From: Candidatus Polarisedimenticolaceae bacterium
Lineage (GTDB): Bacteria; Acidobacteriota; Polarisedimenticolia; Polarisedimenticolales; DASRJG01
Direction of reading: 5' to 3'
Assembly: GCA_036376135.1 (NCBI GenBank)
Contig: DASVAW010000093.1
Location: 1-54,196, forward strand
DNA: 54,196 nucleotides
Shown: piece by piece, positions 10,101 to 26,199 of the stretch
Position numbering within the stretch: the stretch's first letter is position 1
How the letters are laid out: each line of letters opens with the position of its first letter
Translations under genes and position numbers: made by a program
The notes under the pieces: generated by a model
The model's database searches: none
What the model saw: only the letters and a program-made list of their open reading frames with translations
Told to the model about the DNA's origin: nothing

Positions 10101-10134
10101 GCGCGCCGACCAGGAGTCTCGAGAAGCGTCGCAT
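7105..10134 (-). CDS. TonB-dependent receptor, Oar-like, with carboxypeptidase-regulatory N-terminus
   Basis: This 1009-residue outer-membrane protein has a signal peptide (LLVGALLALPLMWLAGG...). A carboxypeptidase-regulatory-like domain follows at about 27-110 (GTLRGKVADEKGEPLVGVTI), then the segment ETVTVTATRPVV. Next come a plug domain (QYLVDGVSTRDP, IESVEIKLTGVSAEYGEFQGG) and a long beta-barrel ending in LNFALTW, with the terminal aromatic typical of BAM substrates. The ATG at 10134 is favoured because AGGAGG lies 7 bp upstream; an ATG two codons earlier is only 1 bp from it. It lies 40 bp after the porin-like gene, probably in one operon and hence under that gene's promoter. Substrate unknown; related families import large or complex ligands or serve in adhesion. 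Confidence 0.93.
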   Translation of the reverse strand: MRRFSRLLVGALLALPLMWLAGGEVLAGSTLYGTLRGKVADEKGEPLVGVTIQVRSPELIRDVVRITDAEGNFFVPDLPQGKFTVVAQLQGYITLSIETDIQKDRTTQLPVVLKEGELSETVTVTATRPVVDKTATESAGNYDKAFTDSLPAGRSYQSLVQFAPGVTGGSNPNVLGGTSSSNQYLVDGVSTRDPVTGTFGSNVNFDAIESVEIKLTGVSAEYGEFQGGLTSVTIKSGGNEFTGSFRDVISAPRWTRLYSPASEGEFAAPVTAGQGLGFTYNRPARRTTYDPGADKETNRMSLTLGGPIVVDTAWFFMSYDRIDNRANAVLGNPTGGTSGNGTYINFFDGDIPSLKLTWQATNNHRFQYSFFEDPARTTRCYGQLFFGGDCYDSYTVDLQGQGGFSYILNWTANWSPTLTTDFKYTRFKNSFKIQPLTPIPSKPQFIFDEALGSGPAAGNGPAIEGPYDPFGAIPNDTYDANIFDETPEDRRREQWELQATKFLDTDSIGSHTIKIGADYKEQDRVGASIIQGNSLTYFYRLDALADPDDPANRAFFYMIDYAEPNTAIPINKFTALYVNDEWQLNENLAFNLGLRWEKSDNRNDVGEKIIKDDGFAPRLGVAWDVTGQGKHLVKATASRYLAGVNITTLSPFVRGAGGQSSYNFLFNANFPNPPGPSGSPTGWQTLFEVRPDPGSNLFEPGIQPQSIDEYTLGYEFQFNPTFGVGAKYVKRDWDNIITQTFDFDYVFTPPDVVTSRQIQTLGINEDAKRSYEGVILTADKRFANNWELRANYVWSKTEGNVETENGFDSFGAYDVPDATQNRYGLLSFDVKHAVKFQASYEIPLKSARHGLSVGSIFDFRAGNPWARNRTYSQIVGPGYNGTQDLPLGTECLASAPCANALTGDQVATVQHFTDPRGSTGREPNAWNLDLSAKYRFKFSKNTNFEAMFECFNVTNEQNTLVVSSTWFEAPGSAAQRRTNYTLGFPTAYGTAGTNLQTPRAYRLNFALTW

Positions 10135-10174
10135 GGTCATGCCTCCTGAGCAGGTCTTTCGCGTTGCGTCCGGG

Positions 10175-11518
10175 TCAGAATTTCGCCGTCGCACTGACGT
10201 ACAGGCGGCGCGAGGTGCTCTTTCCGAACAGCGGCTCTTCGTTGCCGATCGCCGTGCCCGGGAACAGCTGGGCGAAGCAGAAGTCCAGGGTCAGGTTGTT
10301 GCCGTACGCGTAGCGCGCGGCGACGCCGAACTCCTGGCCGAGGTTCTTGTTGGTGGCGGTCGGGCTGATCTCCGTGTTGCGCATCATGCGTTGCGCCACG
10401 CCCATCAGGGTGATCCCGTTCGTGATCTCGGCCTCGAAGCCGACCTGGATCGCGCGGAGGCCCGGCGCGCCGCCGATGTAGGTGCGGCCCCACGTGCCGT
10501 TCCAGAAGTCGAGCATGCCGTAACGGTTGTGGAAGTCCTGCGCGAGCGGGTTGAAGGTCTCGACGTCCGCGCTCGCCGGGTCGTCGCCCGAGAAGTCGGC
10601 GTACAGCCCGTAGACCTTCGACGTCCGGCCGTTGCGCTCCCAGCGCCAGCCGAGCGAGGCCTCGAACGCGTCGGCATTCGCGTCCTGGAGGAGCAGCGTG
10701 TTCTCGTCCACGGTGCGACCGTCCTGGATCGCGGCGTTGGCCTTCGCGAAGAAGCCGGTCGCCGGGTTGTAGGCGTACCGGCCGGTGTAGGTGAAACGCT
10801 TGTCGATGAACGACGGACCGCCGATGGACTCCAGCGAGGTGTGGTTGAAGTTGTAGAGGACGCCGAGATCGACCTCGACGTTCTCGCCGAACTTCATCGA
10901 CTGGTACAGGACGTAGAAGTCCCAGTCGCCGGTGTTGTCCTCGGAGGCGGAGACATCGGTGAGCAGCTCGGGATTGTCGAAGTCGGCCACCTTCGCCCAG
11001 ACGAGCGAGAGGGCGCCCCAACGATTGCCGATGTCCGCGCGCGCGGCGTCCCACGACAGGCCGCCGTAGAAGTCGTTGTCGCCCGCGAGCCATTCGTCGC
11101 CGAGCACGACCTCCTGGCGCCCGAGCCGAAGGTCGAGTTTCTCGCCGAAGACCTGCTTCGCCTCGATGTACGCTCGGTACAGGCTCAGTTTCCCGAAGGT
11201 GAAGTCCAGCGTCGATCCACCCTTCACCGGCGTGTAGTCCTCGCCGGCGGCCCCGAGACCCTGCACGTCGAAGAGGACGTTGACGTCCCGATCGAGTGAG
11301 ATCTGGGTCCCGATGTTCGCGCGGTACCCGATGTACCCGATCTTGTCGTCCCTGCCGAGGAACGAGTCGCTCAGGTTGTCGTTGTACTCCGGCCGAACGC
11401 GCAGGCTGCCGAACCAGTCCCACTTCGCGGTCGAGCCGTCGCCCTCCTCAGCGCTGAACGCCGGCATGACGCCCAACGCCATGACGCCGAGCGCCGCCAG
11501 AACCTTCCACCGTCTCAT
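10175..11518 (-). CDS. porin-like outer-membrane beta-barrel (alginate-export-like)
   Basis: This 447-residue protein has a signal peptide (LAALGVMALGVMPAFSAEE) and alternating beta-strand patterns throughout. FGSLRVRPEYNDN and LRLGRQEVVLGDEWLAGDNDFYGGL resemble the alginate-export (AlgE-like) porin family, and it ends in ATAKF with a C-terminal Phe, the usual barrel-insertion signal. AAGGAGGA lies 8 bp before the ATG. The family is often annotated 'alginate export', but nothing here shows alginate is the substrate; a general porin for sugars or acids is equally possible. It is probably the first gene of an operon with the downstream TonB-dependent receptor, driven from the -24/-12 element at 11673-11688. 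Confidence 0.8.
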   Translation of the reverse strand: MRRWKVLAALGVMALGVMPAFSAEEGDGSTAKWDWFGSLRVRPEYNDNLSDSFLGRDDKIGYIGYRANIGTQISLDRDVNVLFDVQGLGAAGEDYTPVKGGSTLDFTFGKLSLYRAYIEAKQVFGEKLDLRLGRQEVVLGDEWLAGDNDFYGGLSWDAARADIGNRWGALSLVWAKVADFDNPELLTDVSASEDNTGDWDFYVLYQSMKFGENVEVDLGVLYNFNHTSLESIGGPSFIDKRFTYTGRYAYNPATGFFAKANAAIQDGRTVDENTLLLQDANADAFEASLGWRWERNGRTSKVYGLYADFSGDDPASADVETFNPLAQDFHNRYGMLDFWNGTWGRTYIGGAPGLRAIQVGFEAEITNGITLMGVAQRMMRNTEISPTATNKNLGQEFGVAARYAYGNNLTLDFCFAQLFPGTAIGNEEPLFGKSTSRRLYVSATAKF

Positions 11519-11795: not shown

Positions 11796-14036
11796 TCAAC
11801 GGGACGGCAGCCGTGGGAGGAGTGGAGCGAGCTTGGGGTCCGCCTCGGCGGCGCGCCGTATCGCCGGGTCCGCGCTCAGTGCCAGCGCCCGGGCGAGGTA
11901 CTCGAGCGAGGTCGCCTCGCGACCGGCTTCCGCCGCGACGCTGGCCAGGGCGAGCGCGGTACCGGGGCTGTCCGGAGCCAGCTCCCAGGACCGCTCGAGA
12001 TCCCGGGTGGCCTCGGCGAGCCTTCCCTCCGCCGCGCTCCGGACCCCGCGGACGAAGCAGGCTCGCGCGAGCCATCGGCCGACCGACCTCCCCTCGCCGA
12101 AGCGGGCCAGGGCCTGCTCGAGCCGCTCCACCTGGCCCTCCAGCACGCCGGCCTCCTCGGCGCTCGCGGCGGCGAACGTCGCGATCGCGGGATGCGCCCC
12201 GGCACTCCACATCCGGTCGGCCTCGCGCAGCGCCAAGTCCGGGCGTCCGGCGGCACGGAGGAAGATCCCGAGATTCAACTCCGGGAAGAGCCGGCGGGCG
12301 CTGCCGGGCAACGATCCCCGAACGGGACCGACCCGCGACGCCAGCTCGGCCTGCGTGCGGTCGAGGCTCACGCGCCCCGCCGGGGTCGTCCCCTCCTCGC
12401 GCACCCAGACCGCGGCCGCGCGATCGACGTGGACGAGCACCCACGCCGAACTCGCCGCGAGCCGCGCGACGAGTCCGGGGGTCTCCATCGCCGCGTGATC
12501 CAGGATCGCGATCCGCACGCCGTATCGGGCGTGGAGGGACTCGGGATCGACGCGGCCCGCCATGACCTGCTCGCGATACTCCTTCAGGAACGATACGGGG
12601 TACATCGACGTGTTGTCGGCGATGAAGACGCCCCCGGGCGGGCGGAGCTCGCGCAGGAGCCACCCACTCGTGTCGAAGTTGTTGAGCACCGTACCCGCGG
12701 GTCGCGCGCGCGCGACGTACGCCGTCGCCTCGACCGGGAATCGGCCGGCGTCCCATCCCCAGCCGGTCCATCCCGGTGCGCGATAGGTCCCCGGAGGCAG
12801 GTGATCGGCGAGTCGCGCCCACGCGACGAAGAGCACGACTCCCGCCGCGACGAACGCGCTCGCTTCACGACGGCGGAAGAGGCGCTCCCACGCCCCCTGG
12901 ATGGAGGGAAGCGCAAGCATGGCGGCGACCGGCGGCACCAGGGCGAGGTTGCGGATCATCGGGATCGCGAGGATCGAGAACCCGACGAAGGCGATCGGTT
13001 CCAGCCGACGCCCCTCGCGCCAGGCGGACGGCGCCTCGACCGCGGCGGCGACGGCCACGGCGATCGCGAGGCGGTAGGGCCATCCACGCGCCGCGTCCGT
13101 CGGAAGCACGCACCAGGCCACCGCAAGGACGAAGCCCACCGCGCCGCGAACCGGAGGGGAGGAGCCGCCGCGCCGGAGGGCGAACACGAACCCGAGCACC
13201 ACCGCGATTCCCAGCACTGCCCACGTGGCCGGTCCGGCGCCACGAAACAGCTCGGTCGTCGGAACGAACTCGGTCAGCGCCCCCCGAAGCACGGGCTCCC
13301 GACGCAGCAGCGCGAGTTGCTCGACCGGCCACGCCAGCGCGCGGAATCCCTGCGGGTGCGTCAGGCACGCCACGGCCGCGGACGCCATCACCAGCGCACC
13401 CCGGCGGAGGGAAGTCGCGCGACCCGCTTCGCCGATGGCGCCGCGGCGGTCCCCCGCGAGACCCGCGGCAAGCCCCGCGGCGGCGACGAGCATGCCGTTG
13501 ACGAAGTAGCCGTGGAAGTGGATCCAGAGCCCGATCGCGGCGGGCAAGGCCCAGCGAAGGGTCCTCCACGGGATCGCCCCGCCGACCGCGACGAGCGTGA
13601 AGGCGAGAAACACGTGGGAGAGGGTGTCGGGGCGAGGCTCGAGACGGTAGGCGTTCGCGACGAGGACGATCGACGTGCCCACGAGCGCGGGACCCGGCCG
13701 GGCTCCCCCTCGCCGGAGCAGCGCCATCCAGGCGGCCGCGACGAGCGCGCACAGGCCGATCTGGTACGCCATGAGCGCGTGTTCGCCGCCGGCGCGATCG
13801 ACCGCCGCCACCAGGACCGAGGCCAGCCACTTGTCCTCGACGTAGCGGTAACCGGGAAACGGATGGACGAACGTCGAGACGCCGATGGGGGCTGCGCCGT
13901 CGAGGATGGCCCGGCCGACGGCGACCTGCTGCGGGAGGTCGGGATCGACGAGACGGTGCGCGCCGAACGCCGCGCCCAGGAGCAAGACGGCGACGAGGGC
14001 GACCCAACGGCTGCGGCGCGGGGCGGTCGCGGTCAC
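11796..14036 (-). CDS. GT-C-like multi-spanning membrane protein with TPR-like C-terminus
   Basis: This 746-residue protein has about ten or more hydrophobic helices in the first ~430 residues and a soluble C-terminal third. The first periplasmic loop (VDPDLPQQVAVGRAILDG ... YRYVEDKWLASV) matches the acidic loop pattern of GT-C-fold membrane glycosyltransferase-like proteins that commonly read DPDLWWHLATG. The C-terminus (ELNLGIFLRAAGRPDLALREADR and onward) is TPR-like. It starts with GTG, and the upstream gene's TGA overlaps it as GTGA (14036-14033), so the two are translationally coupled. A sugar or phosphosugar transfer role is inferred from fold resemblance and the phosphodiesterase partner. 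No acceptor or donor can be named. Confidence 0.7.
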   Translation of the reverse strand: MTATAPRRSRWVALVAVLLLGAAFGAHRLVDPDLPQQVAVGRAILDGAAPIGVSTFVHPFPGYRYVEDKWLASVLVAAVDRAGGEHALMAYQIGLCALVAAAWMALLRRGGARPGPALVGTSIVLVANAYRLEPRPDTLSHVFLAFTLVAVGGAIPWRTLRWALPAAIGLWIHFHGYFVNGMLVAAAGLAAGLAGDRRGAIGEAGRATSLRRGALVMASAAVACLTHPQGFRALAWPVEQLALLRREPVLRGALTEFVPTTELFRGAGPATWAVLGIAVVLGFVFALRRGGSSPPVRGAVGFVLAVAWCVLPTDAARGWPYRLAIAVAVAAAVEAPSAWREGRRLEPIAFVGFSILAIPMIRNLALVPPVAAMLALPSIQGAWERLFRRREASAFVAAGVVLFVAWARLADHLPPGTYRAPGWTGWGWDAGRFPVEATAYVARARPAGTVLNNFDTSGWLLRELRPPGGVFIADNTSMYPVSFLKEYREQVMAGRVDPESLHARYGVRIAILDHAAMETPGLVARLAASSAWVLVHVDRAAAVWVREEGTTPAGRVSLDRTQAELASRVGPVRGSLPGSARRLFPELNLGIFLRAAGRPDLALREADRMWSAGAHPAIATFAAASAEEAGVLEGQVERLEQALARFGEGRSVGRWLARACFVRGVRSAAEGRLAEATRDLERSWELAPDSPGTALALASVAAEAGREATSLEYLARALALSADPAIRRAAEADPKLAPLLPRLPSR

Positions 14037-16150
14037 GAGCCCGCGTCGAGCTCGCGCAGGAGCGCCTTCGCCTCCCCGGAGGTCGGGTCCTTCGCGAGCG
14101 CGAGGCGAAGCGCTTCGCGGGCCTCCGCGCGTCGTCCGGCGATCGCGAGCGCCCTCGCCCGCAGGATGTGCGAGGCCGCGTTTCCTCCCGTCGCCGTCAC
14201 GAGCCGATCGAACAGCCCGATCGCATCCGCAAATCGCCGCTGGTACAGCCGGAGGTTCCCGAATCGCTCGAGCGCGCCGGGAAGCGACGGGTCGAGCTCG
14301 AGCGCCTTCGCGTACGATCGCTCCGCCGCGACGAGGTCCCGCCGCTCCTCGGCCGCGACGGCAAGCCCCACGCAGGCGCGCGCGCGGTCCGAAGGAACGT
14401 CGCCGAGCTCGTACGCCGCGCGGAACCAGCGCTCCGCCTCCGCCACCCGTCTATCCTGGATCAGGATCTGGGCGTAGAAGAGCGCGGTGCGGGGGTCGGA
14501 CGCGTCGAGGGCGAGCGTGCGCTCGAGTCCGCGCAACGCCTCCTCGCGGCGGCCGGCCTTCACGTAAGCCTCGGCCAGGTAGGCATTCGCGGTTACGAGA
14601 TCGGGAGCCAACTTCACGGCGCGCTGCAAGGGCACGATCGCCTCCGCGGCCCGCTGCATCTGAAGGAGGACGAGCCCCTCGCCGACCCACCCGAGCGTGA
14701 AGGTCGGCGCATCGCGCTGGAGCTCCCGGATGACGCGCAGCGCCTCCTCGCGTTTCCCGCGCGCGGCCAGGATCAAGGCCATGTTGTAGCGATTGAGCGG
14801 GACGGCGGCCTGTCCCTGCGTCGGCCCTCCCGCGGCGCGCTCCGCTCCCGGCGCTCCGCCGACGTAACCGAGGGCGCGCAGCTTCGCGATCGTCTCGTCC
14901 TCGCCGGGGATGTCCCCCGCCTCCCCCTTCGCGCGCTCTCCGGCGGTTTCGTAGTCCGGCACGGTGCGGATCGGCTCCGCGAGGGTCCCGGGGACGAACG
15001 CCGCGTCGATCGAGCGGCCGACGAGGTTCTCCGCGAGCGGCAGCCCCGCCAGCCGGGCGATCGTCGGAAAGACGTCGTAGACGCTCGCTTCGGGAATCTC
15101 TCCGGGTCCTTTCACCCCGCGACCCCAGGCGACGACGATCCCCTCCGCGCGGTGGCTGAGCGGCGCCTGGTTTCCATACCGGTTCTGCGTGGACAGGCGC
15201 GGCCGGCGCGGACCGACCTTGAAGCCGTGATCGCTCACGACGAGCACCGTCGTCTTCGCGGGGTCGACGGAGGCGAGGACATCACCCACGACGCGATCGG
15301 CCTCCGCGTAATACGCGTCCCACACCGGCCCGAACCGGGCGACCTCGGCGTCGCTCGCCCACGGAAGGCGCGGCGGCTGGTATTCGCCGAAGAGGTGGCC
15401 GACGGCGTCGGTTCCCTCGAGGTACACCGCCGCGATCGTGGGCCGGTACCTTCGGATCAGCTCCGGCGCCAGTCGACGGTAGAGCTCGGTCGTCCGGAGG
15501 ATCCCCACGAAGGTCTCGAGCTTCTCCGGGTCGGGCGCGAGCGACCCGGGACCGAAGAAAGTCATCGCGTGCGCGTCTCCGATCGCGCGGTCGACCTCCC
15601 CCCGCGCGCGCTCGATCTCCGCCGCGACCTCGGGGGGGTGGGCGAGACCCGTCGTCGCGCGCGTGGCGCCGCCCGCGATCTGGTGCGACCCCGCGCGGTC
15701 GGAGACGAGGAACCCTCGGACCGGCTCCGCGGGCCAGCTCGCGTACCAACCGACGACGCCGACGGAGAGCCCCTGCTCGGTCGCCACGTTCCAGAAGGCG
15801 CGCACGCGCCGCTCGTCGGAGCGCACCGGCTCCTCGACGCCGTCGCGCTTGGTGAGGAACCCGACGATCCCGTGGTCCTCGGGGTGCCGCCCCGTCGCGA
15901 TGCTCGTCCAGACGATCGGCGACAGGAGCGGATTCTCCGCGCGCAGAACACCCCAAGCTCCCTCGCGCCGCAGCCGCGAGAGGTTCGGAATTCTCCCGTC
16001 CCGCTCGAGACGATCGAGGATCTCCCAGTCCGCGCCGTCGAGGCCGACCACGAGCACCTTCGTATCGGGGCTGGGAGGGAGCGTGCCCGTGGAAGGGGTG
16101 GAACACGCGGGGAGGAAGAGCAGCAGAGCCGCGAGGGCGAGCCGGCGCAT
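14033..16150 (-). CDS. type I phosphodiesterase-like lipoprotein with TPR repeats
   Basis: This 705-residue protein has a signal peptide and lipobox LPAC (Cys16). The N-terminal enzyme domain belongs to the alkaline phosphatase/nucleotide pyrophosphatase superfamily: VVGLDGADWEILD (metal ligand Asp38), SPIVWTSIATG (predicted nucleophile Thr82), YLEGTDAVGHLF and VVSDHGF. The junction motif LRALGYVGG lies near 428-436, followed by TPR repeats to the end. An upstream frame extension was rejected because the ATG at 16150 begins the signal peptide. TATACT at 16165-16160 could be its -10. It overlaps the downstream GT-C-like gene by GTGA. A periplasm-facing phosphodiesterase tethered to the membrane is the likely form; substrate unknown. 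Confidence 0.88.
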   Translation of the reverse strand: MRRLALAALLLFLPACSTPSTGTLPPSPDTKVLVVGLDGADWEILDRLERDGRIPNLSRLRREGAWGVLRAENPLLSPIVWTSIATGRHPEDHGIVGFLTKRDGVEEPVRSDERRVRAFWNVATEQGLSVGVVGWYASWPAEPVRGFLVSDRAGSHQIAGGATRATTGLAHPPEVAAEIERARGEVDRAIGDAHAMTFFGPGSLAPDPEKLETFVGILRTTELYRRLAPELIRRYRPTIAAVYLEGTDAVGHLFGEYQPPRLPWASDAEVARFGPVWDAYYAEADRVVGDVLASVDPAKTTVLVVSDHGFKVGPRRPRLSTQNRYGNQAPLSHRAEGIVVAWGRGVKGPGEIPEASVYDVFPTIARLAGLPLAENLVGRSIDAAFVPGTLAEPIRTVPDYETAGERAKGEAGDIPGEDETIAKLRALGYVGGAPGAERAAGGPTQGQAAVPLNRYNMALILAARGKREEALRVIRELQRDAPTFTLGWVGEGLVLLQMQRAAEAIVPLQRAVKLAPDLVTANAYLAEAYVKAGRREEALRGLERTLALDASDPRTALFYAQILIQDRRVAEAERWFRAAYELGDVPSDRARACVGLAVAAEERRDLVAAERSYAKALELDPSLPGALERFGNLRLYQRRFADAIGLFDRLVTATGGNAASHILRARALAIAGRRAEAREALRLALAKDPTSGEAKALLRELDAGS

Positions 16151-16159
16151 GACCGCCGC

Positions 16160-16165
16160 AGTATA
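16160..16165 (-). promoter_or_regulatory. candidate -10 element for phosphodiesterase operon
   Basis: The minus strand reads TATACT ten bases before the ATG at 16150, just downstream of the terminator of the preceding receptor gene. No -35 hexamer is recognisable in the T-rich terminator tail upstream. Such a short leader would leave little room for a Shine-Dalgarno site, and none is obvious. Confidence 0.35.
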
Positions 16166-16170
16166 GGCAA

Positions 16171-16206
16171 GAAAGAAAAAGGGGGAGGGATTGCTCCCTC
16201 CCCCTT
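16171..16206 (-). terminator. rho-independent terminator of receptor gene 2
   Basis: On the minus strand a perfect 12-bp stem (AAGGGGGAGGGA at 16206-16195 with its complement at 16190-16179) with a 4-base loop is followed by a T-rich tail (TTTTTCTTTCTT to 16171). It begins 27 bases after the receptor stop at 16233. This is a textbook intrinsic terminator and isolates the receptor from the downstream phosphodiesterase gene. Confidence 0.9.
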
Positions 16207-16232
16207 CGCCGCTCACGCGGGTGTGGGACCGA

Positions 16233-19200
16233 TCAGAAGGACCAGCGCGCGTTCAGGCGGACCTGCCGGGGGCCCTGGAACAGCACGGTCTGGCCGTAGT
16301 CCGGGTCGGGGATGCCGGCCTGGCGCTCGACCTGGTCGTTGACGCGGACCGCCTTCTGCGAGTTGAGCGCGTTGACGACGACGACGCCGAGCTGCAGGTC
16401 GCCCATCTTCAACTTGCGCGTCCAGTTGAGGAGGAGGTCGATGTTCATCGTCTTCGGCGTGCGGCCGAGATTGCCGCGACTGACCTTGGTGAAGTCGTAG
16501 AGGAAGAACCCGCTGAAGACGAGGGGATCCGACTGCTCGAGCTCGATCGGTCCGGTCGCCAGGCACAAGCCGTCCTGGCAGCCGACGACGTCCGCGCCGA
16601 GAAGCTCGAGATCGGCCTGCGTGGATTCCGACCACCACCCGTAGATCGGGTCGGTGCCGGGGATCTCACCGGCGTTCTGGTAGTTCGGGTGTGCGAGCAT
16701 CGAGGTTCGGGGCGTCCCCGAGGCGTAGTTGAACGAGGCGCCCGCGGTCCATCCGTTCTCCCACTGATACGAGCCGTAGAGCTTGAGGGAGTGCGGGCGA
16801 TCGGTGTTGAGCGGGCCGCTGCCGAACTGGGTCGACAGGAGCGGCGAGTTCGGGAAGTCGTACAGGGAGGAGATGTTCGGGTCGTCCTGCTGGTTGTCGT
16901 TGCGGTACAGGCCTTCATAGAAGCCCCGCAGCCGCGCGTACCGGTAGTTCGCGAAGAACAACCAGTTGTCCGAGAACCGCTTGTTCAGGACGAGCTCGAT
17001 CGCCTGGTACTTGCGATCGGGAGCCGGGAACGTGGACGGCGTGTTCTCGCCGGGATTCGCCAGCACATACGCGCTGAACGCCTCGACGCCGTAGTCCGGG
17101 AACGGGTTGAAGGGGTACCCGTACCCGAGGCCGTAATAGAAGTTCTGGGTCGCCTCGACGGCGCTCAGCTGGATGTCCTCGAGAGCGCGTCCCTGCTCGC
17201 GGTAGATCCCGCGCACTTCGAGGGACAGGTCCTTCGAGAGCTCCTGCTGGTACCCGAGCACGATCTCATCGACGTACGGGAGCTTCGTTCCTTCGGTGAG
17301 GACGGAAGGATCGAGCCCCTGGAAGAAGATCGCGGAGTTCGGGTTGCCGAGGTGGTCGTTGAGGCCGGTGTAGTTGGGGATGTCGTATCCGCCGTAGCGG
17401 TAGAGGGAGAGGCCGATTTCGTTCGAGAGTGCGCGGATCGCGAGGTCGTTCGGGATCCGCTCGAAGTAACGGGAGGCGTTCGCGTAGATCTTGCTGCGGC
17501 CGTCCCCCGTGACATCGAAGGTCGCGCCGATGCGGGGCGAATACGCCCAGTCGAACTTGTAGTCCTGCGCGGTGTAGTCCGTCGAACCGGGGATGCGGGT
17601 CAGAGCTCCCGGGAACGCGGGGTCGAGCGCGACGCGCTGGAACGGAACCGTGTATTCGCCGGAACCCGCGATCTCCTGCTGGCTCGCGCGGAGGCCGAGC
17701 TTGAGGTTCCAGCGGGTGCCGATCGACCAGGTGTCCTGGATGAAGAAGTTCAGCTCCGTCGAGGTGGTCGGCGGAGGAAGCGGGCTGAAGCGCGCGCGGG
17801 TGACGCGGAAGTTGTTGTTCGCGCGACCGGTCACGAGGTAACCGGCCGTCGAGCGCAGGTTGATGTAGCAGTCGTCCCCGGCCGGGGCGACGGCGCAGTC
17901 CACGAGGCCGGCGCCCTGCGTGTTGTAGTCCTGGTCGCTGTTGACGTCGATCGGGATCTGGAAATCCCTCGGATCGCCGGGGTACTGCTGGTCCTCGGAG
18001 AACTCGAGGTCGTAGTAGTCGACGCCGAACTTGAGCTCGTGATTCGCGAGCGCCCAGGTGGCGATCGCCTTGACCTGAAGGCTCTTGTCTTCCTGGGGCG
18101 CGAGGAATCCCGCGCCGCCGTACCGCCAGACGGTCCCGGTGCCCGGGCTGTCCGGAGCGCACCCCGCGAGACCCAGGACGCAGCGCAGCTCGCGCTGGTC
18201 GGTGAGGGTCGGCTTGTTGAGGGCCAGCGTCTCGTCGAACTCGCCGGTCTTCTGCGAGACCTGCGCCTGGACGAAGAAGTTCGGGGCGAGCACGCCGTCG
18301 TATTTCAGCGAGAAGTTGTCCGCGCCGTAGCTGATTCGCGACTGGCCGCCCCCCTGGGCGTAGTCGAGGAAGGTCAGCGACGTGGAGTTGTTCACGTCCT
18401 GGGTCGTCCGCTGCGCGCCGTTGGCGCCGCGGGACGGGTCGCCGAAGCCGGTGAGCTCGACGCGGTGGTTCGGGTTCAGGTACCACGTCAGCTTCGCCGC
18501 CCAGTTGTTGCTCGTGCGCTCGCGCTCGATCGTCTGGCCGGCGGTCGCGAATTGGCGCGTGCCGACACCGGTCTGGTCGCCGGTCTGGGACAACGGGATC
18601 AGCTGGTCCTCGATCGTGAACGCTTCCTTGGTGGTGACCTGGTTGTAGGCGAGGAAGTAGAAGAGCTTGTCCTTGATGATCGGCCCGCCGACCGAAAGGT
18701 CGAGGTCGGTCGTCGACATGGAGTCCTGGTTGGACGCTCCGACGATGAGGTCGACCTGCTTGTAGGCGCTCATGAGCCCCTTGGGCTGCACGAAGACGCC
18801 GACCGCGCCGTCGATGTTGTTGTTCCCCGACTTCACGATCGTGTTGATCACGCCGCCGGTGGCCTGGCCGAACTCGGCGTCGATGGCGCCGGTCTTGACC
18901 TGGATCTCCTCGAGGAACGCGTACGTCACGCCGCTCCCCAGCGAGCCGTAGACGCCGCTGTAGGTTCCGAGGCCGCCGTACCCGCCGTTCGTGATGTTCA
19001 CGCCGTCGACGAGGTAGGAGTTCTCGAGGCCGGTCGAGCCGGAGATCGAGTAGTTCCCCTGCCCGGTGCCGCCGCCGCTCTCGACGCCCGGCGCGAGCGC
19101 GAAGGTCTGCGAGAAGTTGCGACCCACGGGGATGAAGTCGACGTACTTGTCGACCGTGAACGTGCCCCCGATGGTCGTCGTCTTCGGATCGACCAGCGGC

Positions 19201-19574
19201 GCCTCGGCCGTGACCGTCACCGCCTCGACCTGCCCCGCCGTCAGCACGAACGGAACGGAGCGACGCTGCGTGACGCTGACCAGGATGTCCTTCTGCACGA
19301 CCGTGCCGAAGCCCTGCTTCTCGACGCGCAGCTCGTACTCGCCGGGAGGCAGGTTGGCGAAGAGGTAGGTGCCCTGCGCGGTGGTCTGGATGCTGATCGG
19401 AGCGCGCGCGCCGCTGGCCGTGACCTTCACGCCGGCGATGGGCTGCCCGTTCACATCGGTGACCTTTCCCTCGATGGCTCCGGTCGTCGCCGTCGTCTGG
19501 GCGAAGACCGGCATGGCCATGAGGATCGCGCCGAGGGCGATCGCGGCGACCCTCAGCCAGAACTTCGAATTCAT
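16233..19574 (-). CDS. TonB-dependent receptor, Oar-like (second copy)
   Basis: This 1113-residue protein has a signal peptide (VAAIALGAILMAMPVFAQ). A carboxypeptidase-regulatory-like domain follows at about 30-110 (GAIEGKVTDVNGQPIAGVKV, YLFANLPPGEYELRVEKQGF). Next is a plug domain (YLVDGVNITNGGYGG, LEEIQVKTGAIDAEFGQATGGVI), then a large barrel ending LNARWSF with terminal Phe. The ATG at 19574 is set by GGAGGAGG 7 bp upstream and the signal peptide; the frame stays open for another kilobase over the antisense of the neighbouring gene, which is not real. It is paralogous to the receptor at 7105 and a single-gene unit with its own terminator and -24/-12 promoter. Ligand unknown. Confidence 0.93.
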   Translation of the reverse strand: MNSKFWLRVAAIALGAILMAMPVFAQTTATTGAIEGKVTDVNGQPIAGVKVTASGARAPISIQTTAQGTYLFANLPPGEYELRVEKQGFGTVVQKDILVSVTQRRSVPFVLTAGQVEAVTVTAEAPLVDPKTTTIGGTFTVDKYVDFIPVGRNFSQTFALAPGVESGGGTGQGNYSISGSTGLENSYLVDGVNITNGGYGGLGTYSGVYGSLGSGVTYAFLEEIQVKTGAIDAEFGQATGGVINTIVKSGNNNIDGAVGVFVQPKGLMSAYKQVDLIVGASNQDSMSTTDLDLSVGGPIIKDKLFYFLAYNQVTTKEAFTIEDQLIPLSQTGDQTGVGTRQFATAGQTIERERTSNNWAAKLTWYLNPNHRVELTGFGDPSRGANGAQRTTQDVNNSTSLTFLDYAQGGGQSRISYGADNFSLKYDGVLAPNFFVQAQVSQKTGEFDETLALNKPTLTDQRELRCVLGLAGCAPDSPGTGTVWRYGGAGFLAPQEDKSLQVKAIATWALANHELKFGVDYYDLEFSEDQQYPGDPRDFQIPIDVNSDQDYNTQGAGLVDCAVAPAGDDCYINLRSTAGYLVTGRANNNFRVTRARFSPLPPPTTSTELNFFIQDTWSIGTRWNLKLGLRASQQEIAGSGEYTVPFQRVALDPAFPGALTRIPGSTDYTAQDYKFDWAYSPRIGATFDVTGDGRSKIYANASRYFERIPNDLAIRALSNEIGLSLYRYGGYDIPNYTGLNDHLGNPNSAIFFQGLDPSVLTEGTKLPYVDEIVLGYQQELSKDLSLEVRGIYREQGRALEDIQLSAVEATQNFYYGLGYGYPFNPFPDYGVEAFSAYVLANPGENTPSTFPAPDRKYQAIELVLNKRFSDNWLFFANYRYARLRGFYEGLYRNDNQQDDPNISSLYDFPNSPLLSTQFGSGPLNTDRPHSLKLYGSYQWENGWTAGASFNYASGTPRTSMLAHPNYQNAGEIPGTDPIYGWWSESTQADLELLGADVVGCQDGLCLATGPIELEQSDPLVFSGFFLYDFTKVSRGNLGRTPKTMNIDLLLNWTRKLKMGDLQLGVVVVNALNSQKAVRVNDQVERQAGIPDPDYGQTVLFQGPRQVRLNARWSF

Positions 19575-19874
19575 CCGGTTGCCTCCTCCTGAATGGTTCC
19601 GAACCCCGCGGACCCCGCCTCCCTCACGGAGACGTTGCCCGAACACGGAGCGCATTTTCGGAGGAAAGCAATCGCAGGGCCAAGGAACCCCCTTCCGCAG
19701 CGAAACGCGAAGTCTTGGTGCGTCAGCAGGTTGCCCGATGCGAGCCGGCAGCGAAGCGTCGCGATTCCGCCTCGCTCGATTCAAGGTTTTGGATGAGAAC
19801 AGGGAATCGGATTCGCCGTGCAGTCGGCTGCCCCTCGTTCGCAGCGTTCGGGGCGAGGCGTTATCCTCCGGCGC
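19575..19874. other. 300-bp divergent intergenic region
   Basis: This gap lies between receptor 2 (minus) and VWFA copy 3 (plus) and holds no convincing gene. It contains the -24/-12 element at 19667-19682. GAATCG occurs twice as a close direct repeat on the minus strand near 19760-19790, upstream of that promoter, and could be an activator site. No strong sigma-70 pair was found for the plus-strand gene; GTTATCC sits just before its ATG. Confidence 0.5.
19667..19682 (-). promoter_or_regulatory. candidate sigma-54 (-24/-12) promoter for receptor 2
   Basis: The minus strand reads TGGCCCTGCGATTGCT. Against TGGCACGNNNNTTGCW it matches TGGC, the C of CAC, and all of TTGCT, with the required spacing between GG and GC. 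The base before it is T, also matching consensus. The predicted start near 19656 leaves a leader of about 80 nt before the strong Shine-Dalgarno site. Confidence 0.6.
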
Positions 19875-22031
19875 ATGCGCGTGATCCGCCGCCCGCTCGC
19901 CCTCGCCGGACTCGCCGGCGCCGTCGCCTTCGCCGCTCCGGCACCGCCCCCCGTGAAGGCTCCCGCCGTGGAGAAGGTCGTGGTGCGGCTCGCGCAGTTC
20001 GACGTCGTCGTGCGCGACAAGGAAGGGAAGCTGATCCGGGGGCTGGAGGCGAAGGACTTCGTCGTCCTCGAGGACGGCTCTCCCCTCGACGTCGTCGCGG
20101 TCGATTCCTGGGAGTCGCTCGAGAAGGCGGCCGCCGCCGAACCCGCCCCGGCGTCCCCCGAGCCGGTCCCCGAACCCCAGACCGGCGACGCCCCGTCGCC
20201 CACGCCCGCGGCCCCGAAAAAGGACGAGGATCAACGCGCGTTCCTGATCCTCTTCGACAATCTCAACGCGTCGACCGCGATGCGCCTGACCCAGGCCAAG
20301 CGGGCGGCGACGCGATTCGTCCGCGAGAACCTCCGCGCCAACGACCTGGCGGCGGTTTACACCCTCGACCACGCGCTCCGGCCGATCTCGCCCTTCTCGA
20401 CCAACCCCGAGGAGACCGTGCGTGCCGTGGAGAAGGTCGCCTGGTTCGAAAGCTCCACGTTCTCGGAGCAGATCGCGGAGTCGATCCTCGCCTACCAGTC
20501 GGAATCTGCGGCGAGTCGGATGCAGGGCCGCCTTCAGAACGCCGCCCCGATCGAGGGCGGAAGGCTCGACTGGACGCGCCAGCACGTCTACCGGAGCCTC
20601 GCCTCGCTCGCCGAGGTCTTCCACTCGCTTCCCGGGCGACGCGTCCTGGTGCTCGTGTCGGCGGGGTTCCCGATGACCGCGCCGGGGGACGTGGAGCGCC
20701 TGCGCGGGGGGTTCACGAACGAGTTCCGGGACCTCGTCAAGGCCATGGGGCGCTCGGGGGTCGCGGTCTACACGATCGACGTCGGCGACGATCTCGCGAT
20801 GGGGGACGTGAAGAACCGCATCGACTGGCGCGTCGCCGTCGGCAAACTCGGCATGGACGAGTCGTTCATGGCGGACCTCGGGTTCGACTCCGCGTTCGGG
20901 ACCGGGTCGGCCTCGTCCCGGCGGGAGTTCCTCGGCGTGCTCGCCAACGAGACCGGCGGGCGGATGTTGACGAGCAACGACCTGAACCGGGCGTTCGAGA
21001 CGATCCAGGAGGACACGGCGAACTACTATCGCGTCTCGTGCCGCGTCCGCGAGCAGGCGGGGGACGCCCGCTACAGGCGCATCGTCGTGAAGGTCCGCGG
21101 AATCGACGACGCGCGCGTCACCGCGCGGCGCGGCCGCTACTCCGACGTGACGCCGAATCCCTCGAGCGCGGGAACGGCGGCCTCCGACCGGATCGAACGT
21201 TACGCGCGCCTGCTCCTGCGCACGAGCGCAACGACCCTCCCGGCGCCGTCCGACAAGAGCATCCCCGTCGCGATCGTCGCGGAGGTCGTCGGTCCGGTCG
21301 TCCTCGCCCCCGACACCGAAGGGGCCGGGCGCGTGGAGCTCGACTTCGTCGCGGTGGCGCGGGTCGCGGGCGAAGTCGTCGGCCGCTACTCGCGCCGCGT
21401 GAGCGTGCGCGTGCGGCCCGAGGGGCTCGAGGCGGTCCGCCGGGGATTCCGGGTCGAGGGGAGGATCGACCTCCCGGCGGGGATCTACGACCTGCAGACG
21501 ACGGTGCGCCTGGAGGAACCGGCGCAGCTGGCGATGTGGAGCGGGCCGATCGCCGTGCCTCCCCCCGGGCGAGGCACGGGATTGCGCTTCGCGGGGGCGA
21601 TCCTCGCCCGCGAGTCGGAGCCGCTTCCGCTCCTGGCCAAGGCGGAGCTGAAGGCGGACGCGAAGGACGCCCTCGCCCTTCCGCAGGGGCTGCGCCTGCT
21701 CCCTCCCGTGGACCCCGCCTTCCAGGGACGGGAGTCGGCGCTGGTGTTGTTCTGGCTCGAGGGCCTTCCGGTGGGGGACGCTCCCCCACGCTTCACCATG
21801 GACGTGACCGCGGTCGGCCCCGAAGGGGCGACCTCCCCTCTCCCCGGAGGGATCGTCTTCTTCGAGCCCGACGGCGAGCGGTATCGCGGCGTGCTCCGCG
21901 CGTCGCTCGCGGGCCTGGCGCCCGGGGCCTGGCAGATCCGCGTCGCCGCGCTGGGGGAGACTCCGGAGGCGCGCGCGGAGGCGCGCCTGCCGATCGTGGT
22001 CGAGGCCGCGCCTACTTCTTCATCGCCTTGA
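19875..22031 (+). CDS. VWFA-related acidobacterial-type protein, long form (copy 3)
   Basis: This protein is 718 residues from the ATG at 19875, which begins a signal-like segment (LALAGLAGAVAFAAPAPPP). The short beta-domain reads VVVRLAQFDVVVRDKEGKLIRGLEAKDFVVLEDG. The VWA-like domain begins near residue 122 with ILFDNLNAST, a degenerate DxSxS site as in the other two copies, and contains RRVLVLVSAGFPM. An extra C-terminal region of about 300 residues, absent from copies 1 and 2, is rich in predicted beta strands (RVELDFVAVARVAGEVVGRYSRRV). A GTG 57 bases upstream is a possible alternative start. The last 20 bp overlap the convergent TPR gene. Function unknown. Confidence 0.85.
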   Translation: MRVIRRPLALAGLAGAVAFAAPAPPPVKAPAVEKVVVRLAQFDVVVRDKEGKLIRGLEAKDFVVLEDGSPLDVVAVDSWESLEKAAAAEPAPASPEPVPEPQTGDAPSPTPAAPKKDEDQRAFLILFDNLNASTAMRLTQAKRAATRFVRENLRANDLAAVYTLDHALRPISPFSTNPEETVRAVEKVAWFESSTFSEQIAESILAYQSESAASRMQGRLQNAAPIEGGRLDWTRQHVYRSLASLAEVFHSLPGRRVLVLVSAGFPMTAPGDVERLRGGFTNEFRDLVKAMGRSGVAVYTIDVGDDLAMGDVKNRIDWRVAVGKLGMDESFMADLGFDSAFGTGSASSRREFLGVLANETGGRMLTSNDLNRAFETIQEDTANYYRVSCRVREQAGDARYRRIVVKVRGIDDARVTARRGRYSDVTPNPSSAGTAASDRIERYARLLLRTSATTLPAPSDKSIPVAIVAEVVGPVVLAPDTEGAGRVELDFVAVARVAGEVVGRYSRRVSVRVRPEGLEAVRRGFRVEGRIDLPAGIYDLQTTVRLEEPAQLAMWSGPIAVPPPGRGTGLRFAGAILARESEPLPLLAKAELKADAKDALALPQGLRLLPPVDPAFQGRESALVLFWLEGLPVGDAPPRFTMDVTAVGPEGATSPLPGGIVFFEPDGERYRGVLRASLAGLAPGAWQIRVAALGETPEARAEARLPIVVEAAPTSSSP

Positions 22032-23247: not shown

Positions 23248-23337
23248 GCCTTCACTCCTGGGGACCGGCCCCGATGCGACTCACCGACCGGCCGATTCTA
23301 GGGGGACCGGCTCGCGGGATGCCAGCGGGTGGGCATA
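23248..23337. promoter_or_regulatory. short divergent promoter region
   Basis: Ninety bases separate the two divergent starts. On the minus strand TAGAAT (23300-23295) is a good -10 candidate for the TPR protein, 47 bases from its ATG, without a clear -35. The plus-strand gene has only a GGGTGGG Shine-Dalgarno-like run before ATG 23338, and no promoter for it is evident here. Confidence 0.35.
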
Positions 23338-26199
23338 ATGCGGTCCGTGCGTCAGCGTTTCATCCTCGCCGGCGGAGCCTCGGTTCTCGCGATCGCAGCG
23401 GTCGCCACGTCGATCCAGCGGATCCCCGAAGGATCGATCGGGCTGCGGCCGGGAGCGGTCGTCGACGCGGGCCTCGGGTTCGCCCCGCCGTGGGGCCGGG
23501 CGACCGTCGTGCGGGCGGGCGGCAAGGCCGCCCTCGCCGGACTGACGTTCCGGACCCCCGAAGGCTCCGAGCTCGTCTTCGACGTCGACGTGGACTACAC
23601 GCTCGCGACGACGATTCCCGACAAGTTCCGGGACGACGCCGCGCGGCGCGGCCTCGACGCCGCCCTCGGGACGCTCGCCGGGCACGTGCTGCAGGACCTG
23701 GGAGAGCGCTCGGGGGCGGAAGCGCTCCTCTCCGACCCGTCGACGCTCGAGGCGGCGTTGCGCGCCGCGTTCGGCTCGAACGGCGTCACCGCGACGCGGG
23801 TGAGCGCGCGCTCGACGATGGGGGACGAGGTGCTCGGCCGCCGCCGGACCGCGGAAGCCCGGGAGCGAGTGCGGCCGATGTCGGCGCGTCGCCTCGTGGT
23901 CGTGGGTTGGGACGGCGCGGACTGGGAGATCCTCGACCCGATGCTCGCCGCCGGCCGGATGCCCCATCTCGCCGGGATGCTCGCCTCGGGAGTGCGTGCC
24001 GACCTGCGCTCGTACGATCCGATGTTCTCGCCGCTGTTGTGGACGACGATGGCGACCGGAAAACCCCCGACCCAGCACGGCATCGCGGACTTCCTCGTCA
24101 AGGACCCGGGCACCGGGAAACGCCGCCCCATCACGAGCGACTTCCGCAAGGTGAAGGCGCTCTGGAACATCTGCGGCGACCTCGGCCGCGAATCGGGCTG
24201 GGTGGCCTGGTGGGCGACCTTCCCCGCCGAGCCGATCCGCGGAACGATGGTCTCCGAGCTGCTCGCTTCGGTCTCGATGCGCGGCGCCGACGCTGCCCTC
24301 GCGGTGAAGGGGATCGCGAGTCCCGAGTCCTGGCTTTCGGAGCGTCGCGACCTGATCGTCGCCGCAGCCGACGTCACCTACGAGGAGATGGCCCGGCTGT
24401 TTCCCGTCGCGCGCGCCGAGTTCGAGGACGCGAGACGGCGCGCTCCCGAGGAACAGGTCGACCCCGACTCCAAGGCCGCTCCCGACCCGCTGACGTTCAC
24501 CGTGAAGCTGCTCTCCGCGACGCGCACGTACCATAACGTCGGGGTCGACATGCTGAAGTCCGGGCTTCCGGTCGTGTCCATCTACTACGAAGCGCCGGAC
24601 ATGATGGGGCACCGCTTCCAGCACTACATGCCGCCGAAGATGGCGATGGTTTCGGACGAGGAGTTCGCGCGTTTCCGCGACGCGGTGGGGAACTACTACG
24701 AGGTGCAGGACCGGATGCTCGGCGAGGTGCTCGCCGCGGCGGGGCCGGATGCCGACGTCGTCCTCGTCTCCGATCACGGCTTCCGCAACGGCGACGACCG
24801 ACCGACGGACGTGGCGCCCTTCACGACCGGCCAGCCGGCGGAGTGGCACCGTCCGTGGGGGATCTTCGCCGCCCGCGGACCGTCTTTCCGGACCGGCCGG
24901 ATCGGGCCCGCGAGCCTCTACGACATCGCCCCGACCCTCCTCTATCTGCAGGGATTCCCGCAGGCCGACGACATGCCGGGCCGCGTCATCGAGGCGGCGC
25001 TTCGCCCCGGGCTTCTCGCCTCGCGCTCCCCCTCACGGATCCGCAGCTACGAGCTCGTCGGCGATCGCATCGCGCGACGGGCCCCGGCGGAGATCGATCC
25101 CGCCGCCATGGAAGAGATGATGGCGAACCTGCGCGCACTCGGGTACGTCGGGGGCGAGACCACCGATCCGGTGACCGCGCCCGCCGCAACCGGAGCCGCG
25201 ACGGCGCCGGAGACGGCGGCGGGCGGGGACGCCTCGCAGACGCAGGTTTACTACCACCGGAATCTGGCCACCTATCACCGCAAGCAGGGAAACCTCGCCG
25301 CCGCCGAGCAGGAGCTGCTTCTGGCCAACGAGCGCCAGCCGTTCCCCAAGACCTACGCCATGCTCGGCGAGGTGCGGGCGTCGCAGGGGCGTTTCGCCGA
25401 AGCGGCGGAGGCGATTGAGGAGGGATACCGCACGATCCCCTCGATGATGGAGCCCGAGAGCCTCCTCTGGCTCGTGGAGATGTACCTGCGGGCGGGGAAC
25501 CCCGGGGCGGCGGGGACGGTCGTGTCCCGCCTGGGCTCGCGGGCGACCGCCGCGGTCCGTGAAGCGATCCAGGGGCGCCTCGCCGACGCGGCCGGAAACG
25601 TCGACGCGGCGACGGCCGCCTATGAGCGGGCCCTCGCGCAGGATCCCCTGCTGGTCTCGGTGGCGATGCGCCTCGGGGACCTCTACCGGGCGCGGGGGGC
25701 GCCGGGGCGGATCGTGCCCTTCCTGGAGCAGGGGGTCGCGAAGAACCCGAAAGCGGACGCGTATCACCACCTGCTCGGAGAGCTTGCCCTTGCGGGCGGC
25801 GATGCGAAGGGGGCGCACGCCCATTTCCTCCGCGCCGTGGACATCCAGCCGGAGAACGGTCTCTACCTCGGCCACCTCGCAAACGCCGCGGCGGCCCTCG
25901 GGCGTACGGCCGAAGCCCGGCAGTCGCTCGAGTGGGCCGAGCGATGGACGGGACGCGAGGCCCCCTCCTGGATCGCCATCGGGGGCGCCTGGGATCGACT
26001 CGGCGAGCCCGACCGGGCCCTGGCCGCGTTCGCGAAGGCCCGGGAGTTCGGCGCGCAGGGTCCCGCCCCCGAGATCGGCACGATCCTCGCCCTCGCCCGG
26101 GCGGGGAGGGTGGCGCAGGCGCGCCGCGCCCTCGCCGAAGCCACGCAACGATTCCCCGAAAGCCGGGCTCTGGCGGACCTCGCCGCGCGTTTGCGCTGA
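23338..26199 (+). CDS. band-7/SPFH-like domain fused to phosphodiesterase and TPR repeats
   Basis: This 953-residue protein has an N-terminal membrane anchor (about residues 8-25). About 28-160 resembles a band-7/SPFH domain: RIPEGSIGLRPGAVVDAG, GLGFAPPWGRATVV, then TPEGSELVFDVDVDYTLA. From about 185 an alkaline phosphatase/nucleotide pyrophosphatase domain shows VVVGWDGADWEILD (Asp192), SPLLWTTMATG (predicted nucleophile Thr236), YYEAPDMMGHRF and LVSDHGF. The junction LRALGYVGG (near 598-607) leads into TPR repeats to the end. ATG 23338 is preferred to GTG 23329 because a G-rich Shine-Dalgarno run precedes it. Related phosphodiesterase-TPR proteins lack the N-terminal domain, as the gene at 14033 shows. 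A membrane-tethered phosphodiesterase is likely; substrate unknown. Confidence 0.82.
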   Translation: MRSVRQRFILAGGASVLAIAAVATSIQRIPEGSIGLRPGAVVDAGLGFAPPWGRATVVRAGGKAALAGLTFRTPEGSELVFDVDVDYTLATTIPDKFRDDAARRGLDAALGTLAGHVLQDLGERSGAEALLSDPSTLEAALRAAFGSNGVTATRVSARSTMGDEVLGRRRTAEARERVRPMSARRLVVVGWDGADWEILDPMLAAGRMPHLAGMLASGVRADLRSYDPMFSPLLWTTMATGKPPTQHGIADFLVKDPGTGKRRPITSDFRKVKALWNICGDLGRESGWVAWWATFPAEPIRGTMVSELLASVSMRGADAALAVKGIASPESWLSERRDLIVAAADVTYEEMARLFPVARAEFEDARRRAPEEQVDPDSKAAPDPLTFTVKLLSATRTYHNVGVDMLKSGLPVVSIYYEAPDMMGHRFQHYMPPKMAMVSDEEFARFRDAVGNYYEVQDRMLGEVLAAAGPDADVVLVSDHGFRNGDDRPTDVAPFTTGQPAEWHRPWGIFAARGPSFRTGRIGPASLYDIAPTLLYLQGFPQADDMPGRVIEAALRPGLLASRSPSRIRSYELVGDRIARRAPAEIDPAAMEEMMANLRALGYVGGETTDPVTAPAATGAATAPETAAGGDASQTQVYYHRNLATYHRKQGNLAAAEQELLLANERQPFPKTYAMLGEVRASQGRFAEAAEAIEEGYRTIPSMMEPESLLWLVEMYLRAGNPGAAGTVVSRLGSRATAAVREAIQGRLADAAGNVDAATAAYERALAQDPLLVSVAMRLGDLYRARGAPGRIVPFLEQGVAKNPKADAYHHLLGELALAGGDAKGAHAHFLRAVDIQPENGLYLGHLANAAAALGRTAEARQSLEWAERWTGREAPSWIAIGGAWDRLGEPDRALAAFAKAREFGAQGPAPEIGTILALARAGRVAQARRALAEATQRFPESRALADLAARLR

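Follow-up and report, generated by a model that had tools for sequence, protein, structure and literature searches.

SPFH proteins are universal membrane organisers, and their function is debated because most of them carry no activity of their own. Here we analysed a gene at positions 23338-26199 of a 54,196-nucleotide stretch of DNA from Candidatus Polarisedimenticolaceae bacterium (contig DASVAW010000093.1; the whole stretch is called the window below), the product of which joins an SPFH (band-7) domain to a phosphodiesterase and to tetratricopeptide repeats (TPRs). By profile and by fold, the SPFH part is nearest to the N-anchored proteins HflK/HflC, prohibitin and Erlin. In these proteins, which contain no enzyme domain, the SPFH part leads into coiled coils and a C-terminal cap, whereas the window chain has the phosphodiesterase and the TPRs in the place of coiled coils and cap. 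Ring formation is a general property of solved SPFH assemblies. The enzyme part shares its fold, its Thr nucleophile and its two-metal ligands with the NPP/alkaline-phosphatase superfamily (Xac NPP, ENPP1/3; PF01663); unlike the window chain, these NPP-type enzymes have no SPFH scaffold and no TPR tail.

An SPFH scaffold coupled to an enzyme is also seen in SPFH proteins with NfeD partners, some of which carry a ClpP-type protease; there, the enzyme is a separate operon partner (PMC2636767, PMC13086221). In the window chain, by contrast, the enzyme is fused in-chain and is a phosphodiesterase. The available text of the 2009 classification of prokaryotic SPFH proteins mentions a fusion only for NfeD with protease (PMC2636767), and neither this text nor the accessible portion of a 2026 SPFH survey (PMC13086221) mentions an SPFH-phosphodiesterase fusion. 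Literature searches turned up no account of the architecture or of the enzyme family, with subscription journals and InterPro outside their reach. Both halves are known families; what is apparently undescribed, as far as could be checked, is that they are permanently joined and that the cage wall is lost. We propose, with a probability of about 60%, that the gene encodes an inner-membrane-anchored phosphodiesterase on an SPFH scaffold that is predicted to be periplasmic and self-assembling.

SPFH domain, phosphodiesterase and TPR superhelix in one chain

The 953-residue architecture is one gene, not two, and unites a transmembrane helix, complete SPFH1 and SPFH2 subdomains, an NPP-type metal-dependent phosphodiesterase and a TPR superhelix in a single chain, as follows:

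23338-26199, + strand: SPFH-phosphodiesterase-TPR gene, a single open reading frame of 953 amino acids (full-length relatives of the same order; full-length AlphaFold model)
23347-23412, + strand: N-terminal transmembrane helix, residues 4-25 (model helix; hydropathy 2.07 over 18 residues)
23413-23871, + strand: SPFH1+SPFH2 (band-7) domain, residues 26-178 (AlphaFold, Foldseek, profile against the PDB, Band_7 in relatives, independent hidden Markov models (HMMs))
23887-25152, + strand: type I phosphodiesterase/NPP-like catalytic domain, about residues 184-605 (PF01663, invariant residues, fold matches)
25153-25245, + strand: low-confidence linker, residues 606-636 (predicted local distance difference test score (pLDDT) below 50 over 607-633)
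25246-26196, + strand: TPR superhelix, residues 637-953, about nine helix pairs (TPR families and model helices)

The frame starts with an ATG at 23338 or, alternatively, a GTG at 23329 and is uninterrupted to 26199. The same order of SPFH, phosphodiesterase and TPRs is kept in a single frame in dozens of genomes, across families and phyla. The original prediction, a band-7/phosphodiesterase/TPR fusion read from the letters and the reading frames, had allowed that the parts might be separate genes, and these observations show that they are not. In the full-length AlphaFold model (mean pLDDT 89.2, predicted template-modelling score (pTM) 0.80), the SPFH domain is followed by the enzyme from residue 186, a disordered linker at 607-633 and the TPR helices; a fold search with this model returned TPR superhelices together with Xac NPP, ENPP1 and ENPP3. 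The transmembrane-helix segment begins with the Arg-rich MRSVRQR (seven residues, three of them Arg), and hydropathy revealed no second hydrophobic segment as strong as the N-terminal helix in the 953-residue chain. Pfam TPR families covered the C-terminal third with E values down to 6.8e-14, and the alternating helices of the model form tandem helix-pair repeats there, in agreement with the repeats expected after the phosphodiesterase.

Because direct Pfam and NCBIfam scans of the window N-terminus gave nothing useful, evidence for an SPFH domain was first gathered from relatives, and the window sequence was tested afterwards. The regions upstream of the enzyme were excised from the relatives, aligned and scanned individually with Pfam. 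Band_7 was matched by 33 of the 45 aligned relatives at E<=1 (best 2.5e-13). The orthologue L052, which shares the gene neighbourhood of the window, scored 30.4 bits against a curated cut-off of 23.6, and loci of other phyla (L097, L100, L106, L156) were likewise above the cut-off. Searched against the PDB, the alignment profile recovered prohibitin (2.9e-10) and HflK (5.3e-9), and also Erlin, HflC, QmcA and stomatin.

As circularity had to be avoided, HMMs were built without the window sequence. The window domain scored 36.8 bits against an HMM from 22 distant paralogues only (E 3e-8 for 178,000 sequences), 54.3 bits against one from nine orthologues and 63.4 bits against one from all others minus the nearest relative, while the maximum over about 300 shuffles of the domain was 7.3 bits and the reversed sequence scored 2.8 bits. 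The resemblance of the N-terminus to SPFH exceeds chance. A profile of the orthologue N-termini was furthermore collinear with the free-standing SPFH proteins of the window genome itself (hhalign E 8.4e-5, probability 60%).

The predicted structure agrees with the profiles. After the N-terminal membrane segment, residues 26-178 (AlphaFold pLDDT 91.6) form a beta-rich SPFH1, a mixed SPFH2 and a short final helix at 162-178, and among the best 50 PDB fold matches listed by Foldseek all were SPFH or vault proteins; the vault protein contains a fold related to SPFH. At about 0.35-0.55 of the query, the TM-scores were modest, which probably reflects differences in the anchor helix and in the angles between subdomains. 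G45/P51/G76 and an EG turn persist across the relatives, as does the SPFH fold. The comparison with SPFH folds, suggested along with the original prediction, therefore identified the N-terminus as SPFH and not as an unrelated fold. The prediction had seen in it the start of a band-7/SPFH domain; the identity held, but the truncation did not, as both SPFH subdomains are complete.

For the enzyme, Phosphodiest (PF01663) matched residues 186-495 with an E value of 2.1e-24 and 87.2 bits against a cut-off of 23. Profile and fold both place the domain in the type I phosphodiesterase/NPP family, with Xac NPP, ENPP1 and ENPP3 as fold matches at about 12-15% sequence identity in the fold alignments; the nearest solved sequences, phosphonoacetate hydrolase and NPPs, are only distant. 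Thr236, proposed from the outset as the nucleophile of a complete phosphodiesterase-type domain, is part of the segment SPLLWTTMATG; across 35 aligned full-length relatives it never varies, nor do D192, D421, H425, D479, H480 and H504. These seven residues comprise the Thr nucleophile and the Asp/His two-metal ligands, and by analogy we take them to be the metal-binding or nucleophile positions of NPP enzymes. The active site is intact and both domains are complete.

Distribution, relatives and gene neighbourhood

Searches of whole genomes recovered full-length relatives from most members of the same Acidobacteriota class. Among 119 Acidobacteriota genomes searched with the domain profile, nine had long frames (about 950-1070 aa), and all nine belong to this class; frames elsewhere were mostly of the usual SPFH size of about 300 aa. 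Three more long frames (809-1140 aa; L161, L162 and the L138 genome) carry the enzyme after the N-terminal module outside the class. Several copies of the fusion occur in many genomes of the class; in the window genome there are at least two, the second being G000:C129. Outside Acidobacteriota, the fusion was found in Krumholzibacteriia, UBP1 and Eisenbacteria records with Band_7 above the cut-off. For two of these loci, surveys of their phyla gave further long frames of 758-816 aa; among those retrieved, both domains were confirmed in L156-L159, L166 and L167, and L160 had no long enzyme frame within the stretch examined. In L156, from another phylum, Band_7, Phosphodiest and TPR were all above the cut-off in one protein. 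The search for the architecture across genomes, advised at the start, thus shows that the fusion recurs in Acidobacteriota and in two or more further phyla.

The SPFH label is strongly clustered on a tree of 115 enzyme domains, with 8 changes required compared to a mean of 38 after shuffling, and a Planctomycetes/Bacteroidetes group without SPFH formed a separate, starred branch. This was a quick tree under a simple model, with which one fusion followed by losses and two or three fusions look alike. Like the sister protein encoded elsewhere in the window, the Planctomycetes/Bacteroidetes proteins share the homologous enzyme and the TPR tail with the SPFH chain and have no SPFH module; they are anchor-free, most of them beginning at the enzyme with no signal or helix, whereas the sister is lipoprotein-like. 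The following genes surround the SPFH-phosphodiesterase-TPR gene:

14033-16216, - strand: sister phosphodiesterase-TPR protein without SPFH module (Pfam)
16233-19700, - strand: TonB/Oar-like outer-membrane receptor (Pfam CarboxypepD_reg, Plug, OMP_b-brl_4); the mechanical frame extends to 20624, and the true start is not fixed
19818-22031, + strand: acidobacterial VWA-domain protein (TIGR03436, 2.4e-48), kept in L051 and L052
22012-23247, - strand: CarboxypepD_reg and TPR protein (Pfam), kept beside the orthologues in L051 and L052
26245-31081, + strand: rimP-nusA-infB block, downstream (open reading frames, names read from the sequence), in the same order in L051 and L052

The phosphodiesterase of the sister begins at about frame residue 52, directly after a lipobox-like LPAC, and the protein indeed lacks the SPFH module, as had been noted. 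One genome apparently uses two modes of membrane anchoring for the same enzyme, the SPFH chain and the lipobox-like sister.

In the window, L051 and L052, the gene lies between the TonB receptor/VWA/TPR group and rimP-nusA-infB. Seven other orthologues (L053-L056, L058, L059, L065) are immediately preceded by the TonB-type gene, which is on their strand. Overall, a homologue of the TonB receptor adjoins or lies near the SPFH-phosphodiesterase gene in 10 of the 11 orthologous loci with readable flanks, L057 being the exception. Given that eight genomes of the class contain only 4-15 matches to the receptor family, this linkage is unlikely to be due to chance; it may in part be inherited synteny. 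A second TonB/Oar-like outer-membrane receptor (OMP_b-brl_4) is present in the window at 7105-10194 (- strand). In one subgroup of orthologues (L014, L059 and L065), the N-terminal domain has decayed nearly past recognition (24-29 bits) and the enzyme is kept, as is the TonB neighbour in L059 and L065.

Paralogues occupy other settings. At about ten loci of the class (L036, L038, L040, L042, L043, L044, L046, L047, L048, L050), an SPFH-phosphodiesterase-TPR paralogue lies within the Holliday-junction operon, in the order yebC-ruvC-[gene]-ruvA-ruvB. A separate SPFH-phosphodiesterase group adjoins metK, the gene for S-adenosylmethionine synthetase (L068-L070). The conserved neighbours of a further group (L033, L034, L037, L063, L064) include a predicted SpoIVB-type S55 peptidase, a family without a Pfam match and a protein-kinase-like gene. 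Deriving a function from the neighbours of the paralogues was considered and rejected, as the yebC-ruvC-ruvA-ruvB and metK settings are most simply housekeeping synteny.

Predicted assembly and competing readings

In the proposed scaffolded enzyme, the Arg-rich N-terminal tail would stay in the cytoplasm and the remainder would face the periplasm, as in HflK/HflC. This orientation is suggested by the tail itself, the lipoprotein-like sister and the outer-membrane neighbour. Neighbouring SPFH domains would line up on the membrane to form a ring or patch, an assembly expected from the presence of a domain known to build rings. In solved structures, SPFH1 lies on the membrane and neighbouring subunits make SPFH-SPFH contacts (PMC12624060). 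Lacking both coiled coil and C-terminal cap, the chain would yield not a closed cage but an open crown with phosphodiesterase heads and arms of TPRs. These TPR arms may recruit partners, plausibly the linked TonB/Oar-like receptor and the VWA and TPR proteins, and the enzyme would cleave phosphodiester (or related) bonds near the membrane, in an envelope lipid, a glycan or an imported nucleotide-like substrate. The most natural guess, made with low confidence, is a phosphodiester close to the membrane, for example a lipid head group or a decorated glycan. Going further, one may picture an open membrane ring in which phosphodiesterase heads and TPR arms replace the coiled-coil cage wall, a multivalent envelope enzyme linked to a TonB receptor of the outer membrane, and thus a new, ancient class of SPFH machine, multi-copy in one Acidobacteriota class. 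We put this fuller picture forward tentatively, with the odds somewhat against it.

Several observations weigh against the scaffolded, periplasmic phosphodiesterase. The doubt about closed cages arises mainly because the coiled coil and cap are absent, only the helix 162-178 preceding the enzyme that starts at residue 186; CC1/CC2 and the C-terminus also make intersubunit contacts in solved SPFH cages. Over all relatives, the charge bias around the helix is weak, partly because the rows were trimmed just before it, and the topology rests on the short Arg-rich tail. The Planctomycetes relatives look cytosolic, as they have no N-terminal anchor. The paralogues have housekeeping genes as neighbours (ruvCAB, metK, rimP-nusA-infB), which carry no information on the substrate. 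Finally, the first 180 residues of the window protein gave no credible Pfam match, and NCBIfam added nothing there. This lack of any Pfam match to the window sequence alone is what speaks for taking the SPFH likeness as a chance match or alignment artefact, a reading with next to no probability that is already refuted by the shuffled and reversed controls, the window-free HMMs, the Band_7 matches in most relatives and the fold search.

The SPFH domain might instead only anchor or position a monomeric or dimeric phosphodiesterase at the membrane, with no ring because the cage-forming coiled coil has been lost. Consistent with this, only the short helix 162-178 separates SPFH2 from the enzyme, the N-terminal domain has diverged fast and is barely recognisable in L059, L014 and L065, and the sister manages without SPFH, apparently via a lipid anchor. 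However, relatives have retained the SPFH fold, G45/P51/G76 and the EG turn, other phyla also preserve the domain, and 150 residues of ordered SPFH would be needless for a bare anchor, and we regard this reading as rather unlikely. Another arrangement places the N-terminus of the helix outside and the phosphodiesterase and TPRs in the cytoplasm, where the anchor-free relatives probably reside. Stomatin is an SPFH protein that faces the cytosol, as do some others, and most Planctomycetes/Bacteroidetes relatives begin at the phosphodiesterase, with no signal or helix. Against such an orientation, export of the MRSVRQR tail is disfavoured by its three Arg, the sister is lipoprotein-like and a gene linked to the orthologues encodes an outer-membrane receptor; we judge this orientation clearly unlikely. 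It is also improbable that the enzyme domain has been repurposed for binding or transfer rather than hydrolysis, the chain serving mainly as a TPR scaffold: the distance to the nearest solved sequences would allow this, but none of the metal ligands varies among the 35 relatives, nor does the Thr nucleophile.

With SPFH hard-wired to an enzyme, the role of SPFH assemblies becomes testable through a catalytic read-out, and the family also tests whether an SPFH domain alone, without coiled coil and cap, assembles. The finding points to a large uncharacterised enzyme family, probably located in the envelope and multi-copy in one Acidobacteriota class.
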